From the NCBI RefSeq assembly GCF_000341265.1, contig NZ_ANAE01000143.1, positions 1 through 64,000 of the forward strand: a stretch of 64,000 bases of DNA. Direction: 5' to 3'. The position numbers were made by a program, and so were the translations under genes. The number at the start of each line of letters is the position of its first letter. The first letter of the stretch is position 1. The notes beneath the pieces were generated by a model. The model searched no databases, was not told the origin of the DNA, and worked only from the letters and a program-made list of their open reading frames with translations. Shown piece after piece: positions 23,136 to 29,975 of the stretch. The stretch is from Nocardiopsis prasina DSM 43845. GTDB lineage: Bacteria > Actinomycetota > Actinomycetes > Streptosporangiales > Streptosporangiaceae.

Positions 23136-25025
23136 ATGACCCGGCCGTCGGCCGCACCGAACGCCTCGGGCGAGGGTGCCTCGGACCGGTTCGGAACCGG
23201 ACCGGACGCCGCCTCCGCCCAGCCCGCCGCCCCGGGCCCCGCATCCGCCCCGCTGGCCGGAGTCCCCGACAGCGAACGCCGGGGGCCCACTGTCCCCGTG
23301 CCCGTGCGGCCCGCCAAGCACCGCGCCCCCACCAACGAGGACGACCGCTTCGAACAGGTCCTGGAGTCCCTGCGCAAGCAGATCCGGGACCTGGAGTTCG
23401 CCGAGGGACTGGCCGGAGCCGAAGACGGACGGGCCCTCCAGGCCGACGTCCTGGCCCAGCTCTCCGACTACGTGCTGCCCCGCGTGCGCCGCCCCGACAT
23501 CCCCCTGCTCATCGCTGTCGCCGGTTCCACCGGCGCGGGGAAGTCGACCCTGGTCAACAGCCTGGTCGGAGAGCAGGTCACCACCACTGGCGTACGCAGG
23601 CCCACGACCAACAGCCCGGTGCTGGCCTGCAACCCGGCCGACGTCGACTGGTTCAGCGAGGCGTCCTTCATCCCGTCCCTGCCCCGTGTGCGTCAGCAGG
23701 GTCTGGCCATGCCCGGCAAGGACGGCATGCTGGTACTCGCCGCCACCGAGGCCATGCCCCCGGGTGTGGCCCTGCTCGACACACCCGACGTCGACTCCGC
23801 CGTCGCCGCCCACCACGAGTTCGCCGCCAAGTTCCTGGACGCCGCCGACCTGTGGGTGTTCGTCACCACGTCCGGCCGGTACGCGGACGCGCGCGTGTGG
23901 GAGTTCCTCCAGGTGGCCCGGGACCGCGACACCTCGTTGGCCGTCGTGCTCTCCCGGGTGCCCCGCAAGGGACGCCGCCAGCTCCTGGACCACTTCGGCG
24001 CCATGCTGGAGGCCAACGGTCTGGGCGCCGCCGCCCGCTTCGCCATCCCCGAGACCGACCAGATCGAGGGTGAGCGCTTCACCTCCAACGTCGCCGACCA
24101 CATCCGCGAGTACCTGGCGGACGTGGCCGGTGAGGCGGACCAGCGCGACCGGGTGTCCCGGCGCACCTTCATCGGGGTCATCGACAGCTTCCGCTCCCGT
24201 GTCCCCGAGCTCGCCCGCCGCGTCGAAGCGCAGATCGAGACCGGGCGTTCGCTGGGCGCCTCCGTCGACGACACCTACGCCGGCGCGATCGACCGGATCG
24301 ACACCGCCCTGGGAGACGGCTCCCTGCTGCGCGGCTCCCTCCTCGCCCGGTGGCAGGAGGTCGCGGCCAGCGGAGAGCTCGCCAGGAGCCTGCGCCTGCG
24401 CGGTAAGAAGTCCCGCAAGGGCCGTGATCAGGCCGAGCGCGGTCAGCGCGTCGGCGCTCTGGAACGCGCCGTCCGCGACTCCTTGGAGGCCCTGGTGGTC
24501 TCCGCCAACGACCGCGCCTGGGACCGGATCGAGGAGCAGTGGCGGGACGTCCCCGGCGGCGGTGAGCTGGCTGATCACGCCCTCGACCAGCCCGGCCGGG
24601 GAATGCTCGCCAAACAGGTCCGCCAGGAGATCGCCGAGTGGCAGCGCGGGATCGCGGAGATGACCGCGGCCAACGGCGCCACCAAGCGGTCGGTGGCCCG
24701 CTTCGTCACCTTCGACCACGACGTCGTCGCTCTGGTCCTGATCATCGACCTGCTCGGCTACGAACGATCCCACTCCGGAGGTGGCGCCCACGTGGCCGAC
24801 ACCTCCGGCCCGTCCCCACAGCGCCTGCTCAAGGGGCTGTTCGGCGCCCAGTCGTTGCGCAGCATCGGCCGGTCCGCGCGGGAGGACCTGCGCCAGCGGG
24901 TCCTCGGGCTGCTCTCCCACGAGCGCGTGCCCTTCGACCACGCCCTGTCCAAGGCGGGTATCCCGTCCGACGACACCGCCGTCCAGCTCTATCAGGCCAC
25001 GTACAACCTTGAGATCGCACGATGA
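23136..25025 (+). CDS. Dynamin-like GTPase, first of a pair
   Basis: 629 aa. After a Pro-rich N-terminus the G domain starts near residue 125: G1 AVAGSTGAGKSTLVNSLVG, switch-region threonines in TTGVRRPTTNSP, G3 ALLDTPDVDS. The G4 position reads VLSRVPRKG rather than N/TKxD, so guanine recognition is atypical. The C-terminal half is helical with a basic stretch (LRGKKSRKGRDQ) and one hydrophobic segment (VVALVLIIDLLGY). It overlaps the next GTPase gene by ATGA, so the two are coupled. Paired bacterial dynamin-like proteins remodel membranes; in Streptomyces DynA and DynB support sporulation septa. Orthology to these is plausible but not proven. Confidence 0.85.
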   Translation: MTRPSAAPNASGEGASDRFGTGPDAASAQPAAPGPASAPLAGVPDSERRGPTVPVPVRPAKHRAPTNEDDRFEQVLESLRKQIRDLEFAEGLAGAEDGRALQADVLAQLSDYVLPRVRRPDIPLLIAVAGSTGAGKSTLVNSLVGEQVTTTGVRRPTTNSPVLACNPADVDWFSEASFIPSLPRVRQQGLAMPGKDGMLVLAATEAMPPGVALLDTPDVDSAVAAHHEFAAKFLDAADLWVFVTTSGRYADARVWEFLQVARDRDTSLAVVLSRVPRKGRRQLLDHFGAMLEANGLGAAARFAIPETDQIEGERFTSNVADHIREYLADVAGEADQRDRVSRRTFIGVIDSFRSRVPELARRVEAQIETGRSLGASVDDTYAGAIDRIDTALGDGSLLRGSLLARWQEVAASGELARSLRLRGKKSRKGRDQAERGQRVGALERAVRDSLEALVVSANDRAWDRIEEQWRDVPGGGELADHALDQPGRGMLAKQVRQEIAEWQRGIAEMTAANGATKRSVARFVTFDHDVVALVLIIDLLGYERSHSGGGAHVADTSGPSPQRLLKGLFGAQSLRSIGRSAREDLRQRVLGLLSHERVPFDHALSKAGIPSDDTAVQLYQATYNLEIAR

Positions 25026-28006
25026 CAACTCAGTGGAACCCCGCGCACGCGGGTGACACCGGTCCGGACCGGAACCGAGCCGAGGGCGGGGAGCGCGAGT
25101 CCGCGCCCGCCGGGCGGGGTTCGGACGAGCGCGGCGCCGCCGCACGGGGTTCCGCCGCGAGCCCCTGGAACGACGGCCCCGCGCCGGCGTCGCCGGACCC
25201 GGACCGGTCCGTGCGAGCCGAGGAGTCCGCTCCCTACCAGAGCGGCCCGTGGCGCGGCTACACGATGCCGGTGCCCGAGCACCCCGAGCACGCCGAGGAG
25301 CGTGAACGGGCGGCAGAGGAGAACTCCGTCTACGACCCGCCCGCCTACGACGGGATCACCGGCTATCCGGACCCGTCCGGAGCCGGGGCGGCTCAGGGCG
25401 CGTCCCAGAGGGCGGTGCCCGCCGAGGGCGGGGACGAGAGCGGGGCGGGGGCCGACGACGGCGCCGGGCACACCGACTCGCGCCCCGAGTCCGCCGAGTC
25501 GGCAGGGGCCCGCCAGCGCAGGTTCGGACGCCACGCCCGCTCCTCCGCCCAGGTGGCCGAGGAGACGGAGGCGAACGGGACCGCGCAGCGACGTCGTCAG
25601 GGCGACGCGGACCACGACGACGACCCGGACGGCCTCGCGGGCTGGGTCGGCAGCCTCACTGAGGCGGCCGACGACACCCGCATCGCCGGGCGCCACACGG
25701 GGAGCTTCCCGGTGGTCACTCCGGAGACCGAGCGCCCCGAGGACCAGGGGGAGCGGAGCCGCGGCGAGGGCGGGCGCGACGACAGCACGCGCGGCGGGCG
25801 CGATCGGGCCGAGGGTGGTCAGGGCGAGCGCGGGCGCAACAGACGCGACCGGGTCGACAGCGATCGCGACGGTCACGACCAGGACGAACGTGAGCGGGAC
25901 GAGCCGGACCAGCCTGACGCGCAGGAGGGGGCGCGAGAGCGCCACACCTCCCGTCCGGCACCCGGTGTGGCCCGGCCCGCCACCGCCACCTGGGTCCCCG
26001 GACCCGAGGAGGACGAGGGCGTCACCGACGGTGCCGAGGAGCGAGGGGAACCGGACGGGGCAGCCACGCCTGGCACAGCCGACGCGGGTTTCGACCTCCT
26101 GGATGACGAGGGCGCCGCCCGCGCGGCCGCCGCCTCGGAGGCCCCGGCGAAGCCCACCGGCGATGAGTCCGCCGACGTTCCGGAGGGGGAGGAGGCGGCC
26201 GACGACGGCCCCGAGCCCCTGCCCCGTCGGGTTCCCGGACCCTCAGCGGTCTCCGGTGCCTTCCGGGCGATCGGTGCAGACACCGTCGTGCCCGAACCCG
26301 TGTCCGGTTCCGCGTCCCGCACCGAGGGCACCGCCCCGGAGGAGGACGACGAGGAGTACCGTCCCACGAGCGGTGACCACTGGCAGCCCACCAGTACCAC
26401 CAGCCGCGCCGAGCTCATCGAGCGCCTGGACGCGTTGAGCACCCTGACCGAACTCGGCCAGGGCGACCTCCCCGAGAAGGTCCTCGGCCAGGCCGGTCAG
26501 CTACTGGACCACGCCGGGGCCCGCCTGCGCCTGTCCGGGGACCACACCGTCGTGGCCCTGGCCGGTGGCACCGGAAGCGGCAAGTCCTCGCTGTTCAACG
26601 CCCTGTGCGGACTCGAACTCTCCCAGACCGGCGTCACCCGCCCCACCACCTCCAAGGCGCACGCCTGCGTGTGGGGCCACGAGGGCGCGGACGCGCTCCT
26701 GAGCTGGCTGGGCGTGCCCACGCGCTACCGCCACTCGCGCACCGGGGTCCTGGACACCAACAACTCCGAGCTCACCGGCCTGGTCCTGCTCGACCTGCCC
26801 GACCACGACTCGGTCCGCAGCATGCACACCGCCGAGGCGGACCGGCTCATCGGCTCGGTGGACCTGCTCGTGTGGGTGCTCGACCCGCAGAAGTACGCCG
26901 ACGCCGCCGTCCACCACCGTTACCTGGCCAAGATGGCCGGGCACGGGGCGGTCACCGTCGCCGTCCTCAACCAGGTGGACCGGGTCGCCCCGGACGAGCT
27001 GGAGGAGCTCCTCACCGACCTGCGCCGTCTCCTGGAGACGGAGTCCGGGGTGCACCCGAGAGTGATCACCACCTCCACCGTCACCGGGCAGGGCATCCGC
27101 GAGGTACGGGAGTTCCTGGGCGAGACGGTCGTCGAGCGCCGGGCCCTGGTCGACCGCCTGGTCGCGGACCTGGACCAGGTGATCGTTCCCTTCGAGGAGT
27201 TCTACGGCGAGGGCGAGGTCCCCGCGACGGTCTCCGCCGAGGTGCGGTCCCAGGTGCACGAAGGGCTGGCCAAGGCGGCCGGGGTCACGGCTGTCGCGGA
27301 CGTCGTGGAGACCAATGACGTGCGTCGGGGCAAGCGCAGGGTCGGCTGGCCGGTGGCCCGCCGCGCCGCCAAGCTCCGCAAGGACCCGCTCGCCGCGGTC
27401 CAGCTGGACTTCCTTCGCCGGGACGAGCCGGGCGTGGGCGGGTCGGTGGACGCGCACGAGGCCGAACTCGAGACGGCGCTGGGCGAGGCTGCCGACCAGG
27501 TGTCCAAGGGGATGCCCGGGCCCTGGCGCCGCCGGATGCGCGCGGCAGCCCGCAGCGGGGTGTCCGAGCTGCCGACCGAACTCGGTGAGGCGGTCGCCGG
27601 TGCGGTCGGTGACCCCGATCGCAGTCCGTCATGGTGGCGGATGGCCCGGACATTGCAGTACGTGCTGCTCGCGGTGGCCGGGGCGGGGTTCGCCTGGGCC
27701 GTGGTGTCCCTGCTGAGCTGGCTCGGCGGCGGCATCACCGGGCTGCGGATGTTCGACGCACCCGTCTTCGTCGCCTACGCGGGCGCCGTGCTCGTGGCCG
27801 GTCTGTTGGTGGGCTGGCTGACCGGGGTGGGTTGCGGGAACCTCGTGGAGGTGGCCGCCGTCCAGCGCCGCGAGGAGGTGGAGCGCACGGCCCAGACACG
27901 GGTCCGGGAGATCGCCGGACGTCGGGTCGTGGCGCCGATGGAGGAGGAGCTCGCCCGCTACCGGGCCTTCCGGGCCGCCTACGAGGTGGCGCGGATCCAG
28001 GACTGA
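25022..28006 (+). CDS. Dynamin-like/YfjP-type membrane GTPase, second of a pair
   Basis: 994 aa, start overlapping the upstream stop (ATGA). Residues 1-450 are strongly acidic and arginine-rich, with repeated D/R/G/E blocks, and are probably disordered. The G domain spans about 500-700: G1 GGTGSGKSSLFNALCG, TGVTRPTTSKAH, G3 LLDLPDHDSV, G4 LNQVDRV. Two transmembrane helices lie near the C-terminus (about 878-900 and 915-937) with a short loop, the membrane anchor typical of this class. The canonical G4 contrasts with the altered G4 of its partner, hinting at a heteromeric GTPase. Confidence 0.85.
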   Translation: MTTQWNPAHAGDTGPDRNRAEGGERESAPAGRGSDERGAAARGSAASPWNDGPAPASPDPDRSVRAEESAPYQSGPWRGYTMPVPEHPEHAEERERAAEENSVYDPPAYDGITGYPDPSGAGAAQGASQRAVPAEGGDESGAGADDGAGHTDSRPESAESAGARQRRFGRHARSSAQVAEETEANGTAQRRRQGDADHDDDPDGLAGWVGSLTEAADDTRIAGRHTGSFPVVTPETERPEDQGERSRGEGGRDDSTRGGRDRAEGGQGERGRNRRDRVDSDRDGHDQDERERDEPDQPDAQEGARERHTSRPAPGVARPATATWVPGPEEDEGVTDGAEERGEPDGAATPGTADAGFDLLDDEGAARAAAASEAPAKPTGDESADVPEGEEAADDGPEPLPRRVPGPSAVSGAFRAIGADTVVPEPVSGSASRTEGTAPEEDDEEYRPTSGDHWQPTSTTSRAELIERLDALSTLTELGQGDLPEKVLGQAGQLLDHAGARLRLSGDHTVVALAGGTGSGKSSLFNALCGLELSQTGVTRPTTSKAHACVWGHEGADALLSWLGVPTRYRHSRTGVLDTNNSELTGLVLLDLPDHDSVRSMHTAEADRLIGSVDLLVWVLDPQKYADAAVHHRYLAKMAGHGAVTVAVLNQVDRVAPDELEELLTDLRRLLETESGVHPRVITTSTVTGQGIREVREFLGETVVERRALVDRLVADLDQVIVPFEEFYGEGEVPATVSAEVRSQVHEGLAKAAGVTAVADVVETNDVRRGKRRVGWPVARRAAKLRKDPLAAVQLDFLRRDEPGVGGSVDAHEAELETALGEAADQVSKGMPGPWRRRMRAAARSGVSELPTELGEAVAGAVGDPDRSPSWWRMARTLQYVLLAVAGAGFAWAVVSLLSWLGGGITGLRMFDAPVFVAYAGAVLVAGLLVGWLTGVGCGNLVEVAAVQRREEVERTAQTRVREIAGRRVVAPMEEELARYRAFRAAYEVARIQD

Positions 28007-28108
28007 GCACCGGCCCCGTGGGACCGACCGGCCCCTGAGGGGCACGGATCGCGGCGGCTGGAGAAGAGGAGGGCCGGTCGGGGGCGAACCCCGAGCGGCC
28101 CACTGAGA

Positions 28109-28142
28109 ACGGGGACGGGCGGTATGGACCGCTCGTCCCCGT
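28109..28142. terminator. Bidirectional terminator
   Basis: 15-bp stem with one G-U pair (arms ACGGGGACGGGCGGT at 28109-28123 and ACCGCTCGTCCCCGT at 28128-28142) and a 4-nt loop. It lies 103 nt after the plus-strand GTPase operon and 21 nt after the stop of the minus-strand micro-ORF, so it can end both transcripts. Confidence 0.85.
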
Positions 28143-28162
28143 CGTGTGTCATGGAGGGGGAC

Positions 28163-28192
28163 TTACAGCCAGTGAACGACCTTCTTGGCCAT
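28163..28192 (-). CDS. Nine-codon micro-ORF MAKKVVHWL
   Basis: ATG at 28192, TAA at 28165-28163. The ribosome binding site AAGGAG (28204-28199) has an ideal 6-nt spacer, one of the best in the window. A strong terminator begins 21 nt past the stop, so a short dedicated transcript of about 250 nt is likely. Its source would be the AT-rich promoter region at 28350-28440. The peptide is cationic and amphipathic with a terminal HWL. It could be a signalling or modified peptide, or a translated marker in a small RNA. No modifying enzyme (P450, radical SAM, lanthionine synthetase) is adjacent. I do not recognise it. Confidence 0.55.
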   Translation of the reverse strand: MAKKVVHWL

Positions 28193-28362
28193 GTGATGCT
28201 CCTTCGATTCGAGTGAGTTGCTGGATCATCGGGCGGTCGGCACGGCGGACAGACAGCGACAGAGACGGACCGGCCAGCTTCTGGCCGAAACCGGCGATGC
28301 CCTCTGGCAGGATGCCCTAAATCGTGACGCTAACCAACCCCCCTGGAACACAGGGTGACCAC

Positions 28363-28423
28363 TAAGGTAGCCTCAACCTGCGGGTCACATACAATCGGCG
28401 ATTAAGTTATTACCCAAAGTAAT
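28363..28423. promoter_or_regulatory. AT-rich divergent promoter region with iron-box-like and palindromic sites
   Basis: At 28363-28381, TAAGGTAGCCTCAACCTGC has the half-site layout AGGT-N7-ACCT of IdeR/DmdR iron boxes, but the core is a poor match. At 28409-28423, ATTAC-CCAAA-GTAAT is an inverted repeat. The segment is conspicuously AT-rich for this genome and lies between the micro-ORF (minus) and the diguanylate cyclase gene (plus), so it can serve either. Confidence 0.4.
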
Positions 28424-28619
28424 GTAAAGTGGTAGGGGTGTACTCCCCAGTCACCTACCAGGGAGGACGTGGGACCCACCTGGTCACCGAGTGGCACCGT
28501 GAGGGAACGCGGGGCGAGTCCGGTTCGTCGAAGGGAGAACCGTGAGAGGCGGTGGGCGCATCAGAGTCGGGTGCGGGGGGCCGGAGACAGAAGGTGACAC
28601 GGGGAGGGAGGAGGGAGCG

Positions 28620-29975
28620 GTGAGCATCTCGGAGAAACCGATGGCAACCGAGGGCGCCCCCCTTGAGGAGCGCCGGTCCTGGCCGATCTTCCAGCAGCCC
28701 CTGGGGCTGGTCGTCTACCTGATCCTGCTGGTCTTCGTCGCGTTGTTCCTGTTCGGGGTGGCGGCCGCGCAGACGGTTCCCACCGTTTCCGACCTCTCGC
28801 TGCTGCTCGCCCTGGTGATCTCCGCGGTGGTGTGCGTCGAGGCGATCCGCCGCATCGACCTGCCCGCCGGAATCACCCGCGACCTCCTGGGGGCCTGGTG
28901 GTTCCCCGCGATGCTCCTCCTGCCCCCGGTGTACTCGCTCCTCATCCCCGTCCCCGTCTACCTGCTGCTCCAGCGCCGCAGCAGGCGCACCCTGCCGCAC
29001 CGGCGCGTTTTCAACGCCGCCGCCATCGGCGTCTCCGGCTTCCTCGCCTCGGTGGTCTGGCACGGCGCCCAGGGCGGCCTGCTCGCCGGGATCAGCGGCT
29101 CCTCGAACGCGCACGAGTCCCTGCTCTCCCTCAGCGGCGTGATCCTGGCCCTGGCCTGCTGCGCCGGGTTCACCGTCATGAACACGTTCCTGGTCTTCCT
29201 GGGCACCAGGCTCAGCGGTGGATCGGGCAGCGTGCGGACCATGTGGGACCGGGAGGCCCTCCTGGTGGACTCCGCCGAGTTATGTGTCGGCGTGACCGTC
29301 GCGATCCTCGCCCAGTTGTCGATGTTCCTCCTCGTCATCGCGGTTCCGCCGGTCCTCCTGCTCCAGCGCAGCCTCGTCTACCAGCAGCTCCAGACCGCGG
29401 CGCGGACCGACCCCAAGACCGGTCTGCTCAACGCCCCCACCTGGGAGCAGGAGGCGGCCACCGAGATCAACCGGGCCCGCACCACGCGCGGCCGGGCGGC
29501 CGTGCTCATCGTGGACATCGACCACTTCAAGCGGGTGAACGACAGTTACGGTCACCTTTTCGGCGACCAGGTCCTGCTGGGCGTCGCGACGACCATCGCC
29601 CAACAGCTGCGCCAGTCGGACCTGCTGGGCCGGTTCGGCGGCGAGGAGTTCGTCGTGCTGCTGCCCGGGGCCGACGCCACCGAGGCCTGGCAGGCGGCCG
29701 AGCGGCTGCGCTCCCAGGTGGGGCGCATGGAGATCGCGGTGGAGGACGTCCAGGTCTCCATCACCATCTCCATCGGGGTGGCCGTCGCCGGTGACCACGG
29801 CAACGACCTCGTCGAACTGCTCACCGCGGCCGACCTCGCGCTCTACCGGGCGAAGGAGACCGGCCGCGACCGCGTGTGCCTGCCCGCCGGGCGCCCCGAG
29901 GTGACGGGGCAGATCCCCGGCCCCCGGGAGGGGCAGATCACCGATCCGGCCAACAGCCAGGGCGAGCCTTCCTGA
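28620..29975 (+). CDS. Membrane diguanylate cyclase (GGDEF)
   Basis: 451 aa from the GTG at 28620 with AGGAGG 5 nt upstream. A GTG at 28542 with GGGAG is an alternative adding 26 residues. Residues about 20-260 contain several hydrophobic helices, a polytopic sensor region resembling MASE-type domains without a clear family. The GGDEF domain spans about 265-435: DPKTGLLNAPTWEQE, VDIDHFKRVNDSYGHLFGD, active-site GGEEF at 340-344, and an RxxD product-inhibition site RQSD exactly five residues upstream. No EAL or HD-GYP domain. It makes cyclic di-GMP, which in filamentous actinobacteria controls development through BldD. Confidence 0.93.
   Translation: MSISEKPMATEGAPLEERRSWPIFQQPLGLVVYLILLVFVALFLFGVAAAQTVPTVSDLSLLLALVISAVVCVEAIRRIDLPAGITRDLLGAWWFPAMLLLPPVYSLLIPVPVYLLLQRRSRRTLPHRRVFNAAAIGVSGFLASVVWHGAQGGLLAGISGSSNAHESLLSLSGVILALACCAGFTVMNTFLVFLGTRLSGGSGSVRTMWDREALLVDSAELCVGVTVAILAQLSMFLLVIAVPPVLLLQRSLVYQQLQTAARTDPKTGLLNAPTWEQEAATEINRARTTRGRAAVLIVDIDHFKRVNDSYGHLFGDQVLLGVATTIAQQLRQSDLLGRFGGEEFVVLLPGADATEAWQAAERLRSQVGRMEIAVEDVQVSITISIGVAVAGDHGNDLVELLTAADLALYRAKETGRDRVCLPAGRPEVTGQIPGPREGQITDPANSQGEPS

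Follow-up and report, generated by a model that had tools for sequence, protein, structure and literature searches.

The tiny open reading frame and its neighbourhood

The window, i.e. the whole stretch of 64,000 nt of Nocardiopsis prasina DSM 43845 DNA that was analysed, harbors two adjacent genes of dynamin-type GTPases, as expected for a DynA/DynB-like pair, followed by a gene of a membrane GGDEF protein. An open reading frame of nine codons is located between the second GTPase gene and the GGDEF gene on the minus strand. The features of this region are as follows:

23136..25025, plus strand: first dynamin-like GTPase (Pfam Dynamin_N, E=2e-10)
25022..28006, plus strand: second dynamin-like GTPase (DLP2), 994 aa, convergent with the tiny gene; weaker GTPase matches, with Dynamin_N below the cut-off
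28108..28143, unstranded: G+C-rich hairpin of 15 bp separating the tiny gene from the convergent GTPase gene, with no U-tract; probably a bidirectional terminator
28163..28192, minus strand: tiny gene MAKKVVHWL, 9 codons with TAA stop, homologues at 46 loci
28199..28204, minus strand: Shine-Dalgarno sequence AAGGAG, 6 nt 5' of ATG; an SD-like core lies upstream in 45 of 46 homologues
28193..28302, minus strand: 5' leader of ~110 nt, with a putative start site
28309..28337, minus strand: promoter-like footprint TTGGTT (28337-28332), 17-nt spacer, CATCCT (28314-28309); an island conserved in 34 loci, read by eye
28402..28430, plus strand: conserved island with promoter-like TTAAGT-17-TAAAGT, putatively serving the GGDEF gene, which overlaps with the predicted BldD box in sequence
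28410..28422, unstranded: predicted BldD box TTACCCAAAGTAA, matching the consensus TNACN5GTNA (PMC4151990)
28620..29975, plus strand: membrane GGDEF protein, divergent from the tiny gene (PF00990, E=8e-45)

The codons of the tiny gene read on the minus strand are ATG GCC AAG AAG GTC GTT CAC TGG CTG, the start codon occupying positions 28192-28190 and the stop codon TAA positions 28165-28163. Reading of the sequence confirmed the nine-codon gene MAKKVVHWL with AAGGAG 6 nt from ATG, as described in the original prediction. The calculated [M+H]+ of the unmodified peptide is about 980.60 without Met, 1111.64 with Met and 1139.64 in the formylated form. The tiny peptide contains no export signal. 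No second copy of the ORF was found in the genus with a pattern combining AAGGAG and an in-frame Trp codon, the other matches of this pattern not being ORFs of such form.

The hairpin (28143-28108) has one internal mismatch, and most of the 46 loci with the ORF have a GC-rich hairpin 3' of it. The tiny gene had been proposed to have its own 15-bp terminator 21 nt past the stop; the 15-bp hairpin is indeed present, but it begins at 19 nt, has no U-tract and lies between convergent genes. Scanning of the 27900-28700 region with consensus sequences gave no canonical terminator, promoter or sigma-70 match. Since the hairpin lacks a U-tract, the scan found no canonical terminator and such a hairpin would be common to both convergent genes, it can be regarded only as a putative terminator of the tiny gene.

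There is no gene on the same strand 3' of the tiny ORF: both in the window and in every GTPase-anchored locus with the ORF the next gene is the convergent GTPase. The neighbouring genes are housekeeping ones and occur also where the ORF is absent, and the remaining genes of the window that were tested are ordinary. No P450, ThiF/MccB, YcaO or radical-SAM enzyme was recognised by Pfam among the window genes tested, nor was any modification or export enzyme recognised beside the tiny ORF. The GGDEF gene has a probable GTG start at 28620, a longer ORF beginning at 28542.

Conservation of the ORF in related genomes

The relatives were collected by a DNA search of 80 genomes followed by anchoring on the neighbouring GTPase, and the homologous intergenic region was obtained from 79 genomes (79 loci). 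A homologue of the ORF is present at 46 of these loci, belonging to 34 of the 40 species of the genus and to 12 species in other genera. Its position is constant, convergent with the dynamin-like GTPase gene and divergent from the GGDEF gene. The homologues consist of either 8 codons (34 loci) or 9 codons (12 loci) and have no other length, start with ATG (44) or GTG (2) and end with TGA (21), TAG (19) or TAA (6). Tryptophan is the penultimate residue in all 46, although they comprise 38 distinct peptides with the C-terminal consensus G-[VI]-[QH]-W-[IV]. Examples of the peptides are:

MAKKVVNWT, N. eucommiae
MSKQVTWI, N. quinghaiensis
MVTSGATWI, N. algeriensis
MSKGLTWV, N. salina
MVGNGVTWT, N. 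flavescens
MSSGIQWV, Streptomonospora mangrovi
MGRNLHWI, Marinitenerispora sediminis

A GGDEF gene is found at the equivalent position in named relatives. The GTPase of the window and its N. eucommiae counterpart share 95% identity, and close relatives such as this one mark the DNA as that of a Nocardiopsis. The pattern M-x-x-G-[VI]-[QH]-W-[VI]-stop was matched 15 times in 260 family genomes, and 14 of these matches are the tiny-gene locus; the fifteenth (in G119) was discarded because its final codon is TGG and no stop is present. Among 395 genomes of the class the pattern matched 5 times, always at the tiny-gene locus and always inside the family, with no match outside it. A literature search for the peptide strings returned no match, and no paper combining Nocardiopsis, small ORFs and c-di-GMP was found.

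Substitutions were counted in 16 independent pairs of near relatives. The start and Trp codons have accumulated 1 substitution versus 12.1 expected (P=1.6e-5), as compared with 49 in the other codons, and this sole change is ATG to GTG. Three substitutions fell in stop codons, each producing another stop, and length varies by one whole codon. Within 420 nt beyond the GTPase stop, 47 minus-strand ORFs of such shape were found in the 46 positive loci (one of them being a nested alternative start) versus none in the same stretch of the 33 other loci; adjoining DNA contained 5 in 66.7 kb. The codon changes in near pairs are mostly nonsynonymous (30 versus 8 synonymous), which means that the constraint acts on length, on Trp and on the nearby aliphatic positions and is weak elsewhere. 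The residues at positions -4 and -1 are kept aliphatic or beta-branched, suggesting that the peptide itself matters.

As far as sequence comparison can tell, conservation shows the ORF with its start, stop, length and tryptophan. The claim of a real ultra-short gene overlooked by gene finders is strongly supported, because start, ribosome binding site, length, tryptophan and stop are conserved over about a dozen genera. A check in related genomes had been set beforehand as a way to refute the prediction, and it did not refute it: a start codon, the length class and Trp are conserved at the 46 loci, and an SD-like core at 45 of them. The tiny ORF is almost certainly a translated gene, and this gene of 8 or 9 codons very probably yields a real tiny peptide.

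The opposite reading is that a chance ORF happens to lie within conserved intergenic DNA. The intergenic region does contain other conserved islands. This reading is nevertheless extremely improbable in view of the 47 ORFs in positive loci versus none in the 33 others, of the length changes by whole codons, of the start and stop swaps, of the invariant Trp, and of the true matches of the peptide pattern, all of which fall at the tiny-gene locus in the 260 family genomes.

On the GTPase tree of 75 genomes, obtained by a quick search and with any diverged copy devoid of the penultimate Trp counted as absent, presence of the ORF requires 7 changes versus 23.4 with shuffled labels. This fits a single old origin below a clade that spans many genera, followed by about six losses; the tiny gene is dispensable and was lost several times. 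The six genomes of the genus that have no ORF (L025, L007-L011) form one clade, where an apparent deletion removed the promoter, the leader and the start; the AT-rich element described below is retained in this region. A remnant TGG-CCG-TGA is readable beside a deletion in G034.

Promoter-like elements and the leader RNA

Alignment of 34 Nocardiopsis loci reveals three conserved islands, namely an AT-rich element, the TTGGTT-17-CATCCT footprint, and the Shine-Dalgarno sequence with the ORF. The footprint lies ~110 nt 5' of the ORF and keeps its place beside it where the AT-rich element is farther off; we take it as the putative promoter of the tiny gene. The leader of 150-200 nt transcribed from an AT-rich promoter, which had been suggested initially, is therefore probably wrong, the nearer footprint giving ~110 nt. 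The AT-rich element is more likely the promoter region on the GGDEF side with a putative BldD box, since it is kept in species without the ORF and overlaps a promoter-like sequence pointing at the GGDEF gene. This argues against its former assignment to the tiny gene. A strict BldD box is present within 1.3 kb at 44 of the 46 positive loci; the box of G141 is ~1.2 kb off, outside the usual place. The dyad of the box is conserved across Nocardiopsis and related genera, its two halves changing symmetrically (TTAC/GTAA, TCAC/GTGA), and it persists at loci that have lost the ORF. Three loci without the ORF (L045, L049 and L051) have a promoter-like sequence TTGTGN-18/19-TACATT on the minus strand beside the BldD box. 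A pair of half-sites resembling an iron box near 28364-28378 was too weak and was dropped.

Conservation of the leader falls far short of that of the ORF. In a clade of ten Nocardiopsis species (L081, L082, L015, L012, L014, L079, L083, L087, L080 and L031) it can be folded into a covarying three-way junction, in which 90.3% of the cells are paired and 13 cells show double changes versus 4.6 after shuffling. The covariance model built from these ten species recognises one further species outright (G001, 53 bits, outside the training set) and a few weakly. Across 120 genomes it yields no additional strong genomic site, and it matches neither the window nor the window's own genome. The leader of the window species has a folding energy no better than that of shuffled sequences (z=0.17). 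Rfam gave no match at the gathering score in the window and matches of chance level only in three related loci. The leader structure was rejected as the main feature, since the window's own genome has no match to the model and the folding energy there is not special; it is a secondary feature. In L006, L005 and L003 tandem heptamers CAGCACT/CAGCACA are located just 5' of the Shine-Dalgarno sequence, and their copy number varies among close species.

Possible mode of action

The mechanism that we propose is as follows. RNA polymerase would initiate at the putative promoter ~110 nt upstream of the ORF, ribosomes would be loaded through the strong Shine-Dalgarno site, and the product would be a peptide of 8 or 9 residues with a C-terminal end of roughly G-[VI]-x-W-[VI]. 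The hairpin would end transcription. The peptide would then act in trans, either as an intracellular regulator or as a signal diversified between species. Taken as a whole, i.e. as a translated monocistronic micropeptide gene whose unmodified peptide acts in trans, this statement is somewhat more probable than its negation.

Since the ORF is single-copy and has no same-strand gene 3' of it, cis action is unlikely. As no gene lies behind it on its strand and a RiPP enzyme was not recognised in the window, the ORF appears to be neither a cis leader nor a clustered RiPP precursor. This leaves a trans-acting product, which may be the peptide (the option that we favour), a modified form of it or the RNA. 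It is possible that the product is a signalling peptide or a RiPP precursor.

The tiny ORF resembles leader peptides and regulatory uORFs in having few codons, a strong Shine-Dalgarno site and a hairpin on the 3' side, and the Trp codon near the stop with the hairpin next to it is attenuator-like. That it serves some downstream gene in cis, as a leader peptide or attenuator, is still very unlikely and is largely refuted by synteny: leader peptides and uORFs regulate in cis the gene that follows them, whereas the gene next to the tiny ORF is convergent at every GTPase-anchored positive locus. Moreover, TAA, TAG and TGA are all in use, and the hairpin of the window lies 19 nt past the stop.

The shortest known free-standing bacterial genes are RiPP precursors (biarylitides, PMC13417212; microcin C, PMC6495379), and the tiny peptide might be a minimal precursor of this type that is exported after modification, perhaps at its invariant tryptophan, by an enzyme whose gene lies elsewhere. 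The microcin C precursor gene mccA has 7 codons, and short ORFs favour reiterative translation (PMC6495379). The tiny gene is likewise a free-standing ORF with conserved length and variable sequence (8 or 9 codons, 38 sequences), although its length is not the 7 codons of the microcin C class, and the Trp beside the C-terminus is a plausible site of modification. In contrast to it, mccA belongs to an operon with mccB and export genes, while Pfam recognised no ThiF-like enzyme among the window genes tested; what the tiny gene conserves is its penultimate Trp. The biarylitide precursor gene bytA has 5 codons; the precursors of this family have 5-8 residues with aromatics at positions 3 and 5 and a P450 encoded adjacently (PMC13417212). 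Like the tiny gene, bytA is actinobacterial, too short for annotation and codes for a very short peptide with an aromatic residue. It is tied to a P450 gene, however, whereas Pfam recognised none among the window genes tested, and the biarylitide spacing of aromatics is absent: Trp occupies position 7 or 8, and none of the 38 peptides has aromatics at both positions 3 and 5. As the neighbours are housekeeping genes found without the ORF too, a modified product of this kind seems unlikely.

It could also be that the RNA is the active molecule, the short ORF controlling how stable a trans-acting RNA is or how it folds, or serving as a ribosome-based sensor of charged Trp-tRNA. The covarying three-way junction of the ten-species clade, recognised by its model in G001 too, and the free variation of most amino acids speak for this option. 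It is nonetheless quite improbable, given the leader conservation far below that of the ORF, the unremarkable fold of the window leader, the absence of an Rfam match and the aliphatic or beta-branched residues at -4 and -1, which point to the peptide.

To return to the unmodified peptide acting in trans, its gene may be an old free-standing one of 8 or 9 codons that encodes an unprocessed, diversifying, leaderless peptide with a signalling or regulatory part in the development of Nocardiopsis and relatives, controlled alongside c-di-GMP/BldD, and it may be among the shortest autonomous genes outside biosynthetic clusters; we put this forward as a tentative and rather doubtful extension. To our knowledge, the shortest bacterial genes are precursors within biosynthetic clusters. 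The notion of a gene would be broadened by one of 8 or 9 codons that is conserved and autonomous, comes with a promoter-like element and a hairpin of its own and has no recognised partner enzyme; it was synteny, not gene finding, that led to it.

A developmental role is suggested only by the position beside the GGDEF gene with its predicted BldD box and the dynamin-like genes, whose counterparts in Streptomyces serve development and sporulation septation. The location between a diguanylate cyclase gene with a predicted BldD box and the dynamin-like pair makes the peptide a testable candidate in actinomycete development. The GGDEF gene resembles Streptomyces cdgA and cdgB, the diguanylate cyclase genes controlled by BldD (PMC4151990), in having a predicted BldD box in its promoter region; unlike here, an adjacent micropeptide gene is not described there. 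The dynamin-like pair of the window can be likened to Streptomyces DynAB by adjacency and domains, and the Streptomyces pair acts in sporulation septation (PMC8748795). In the second dynamin-like GTPase the N-terminus is extended by a charged, low-complexity stretch of ~470 residues (25022-26430), whose length is highly variable among relatives.
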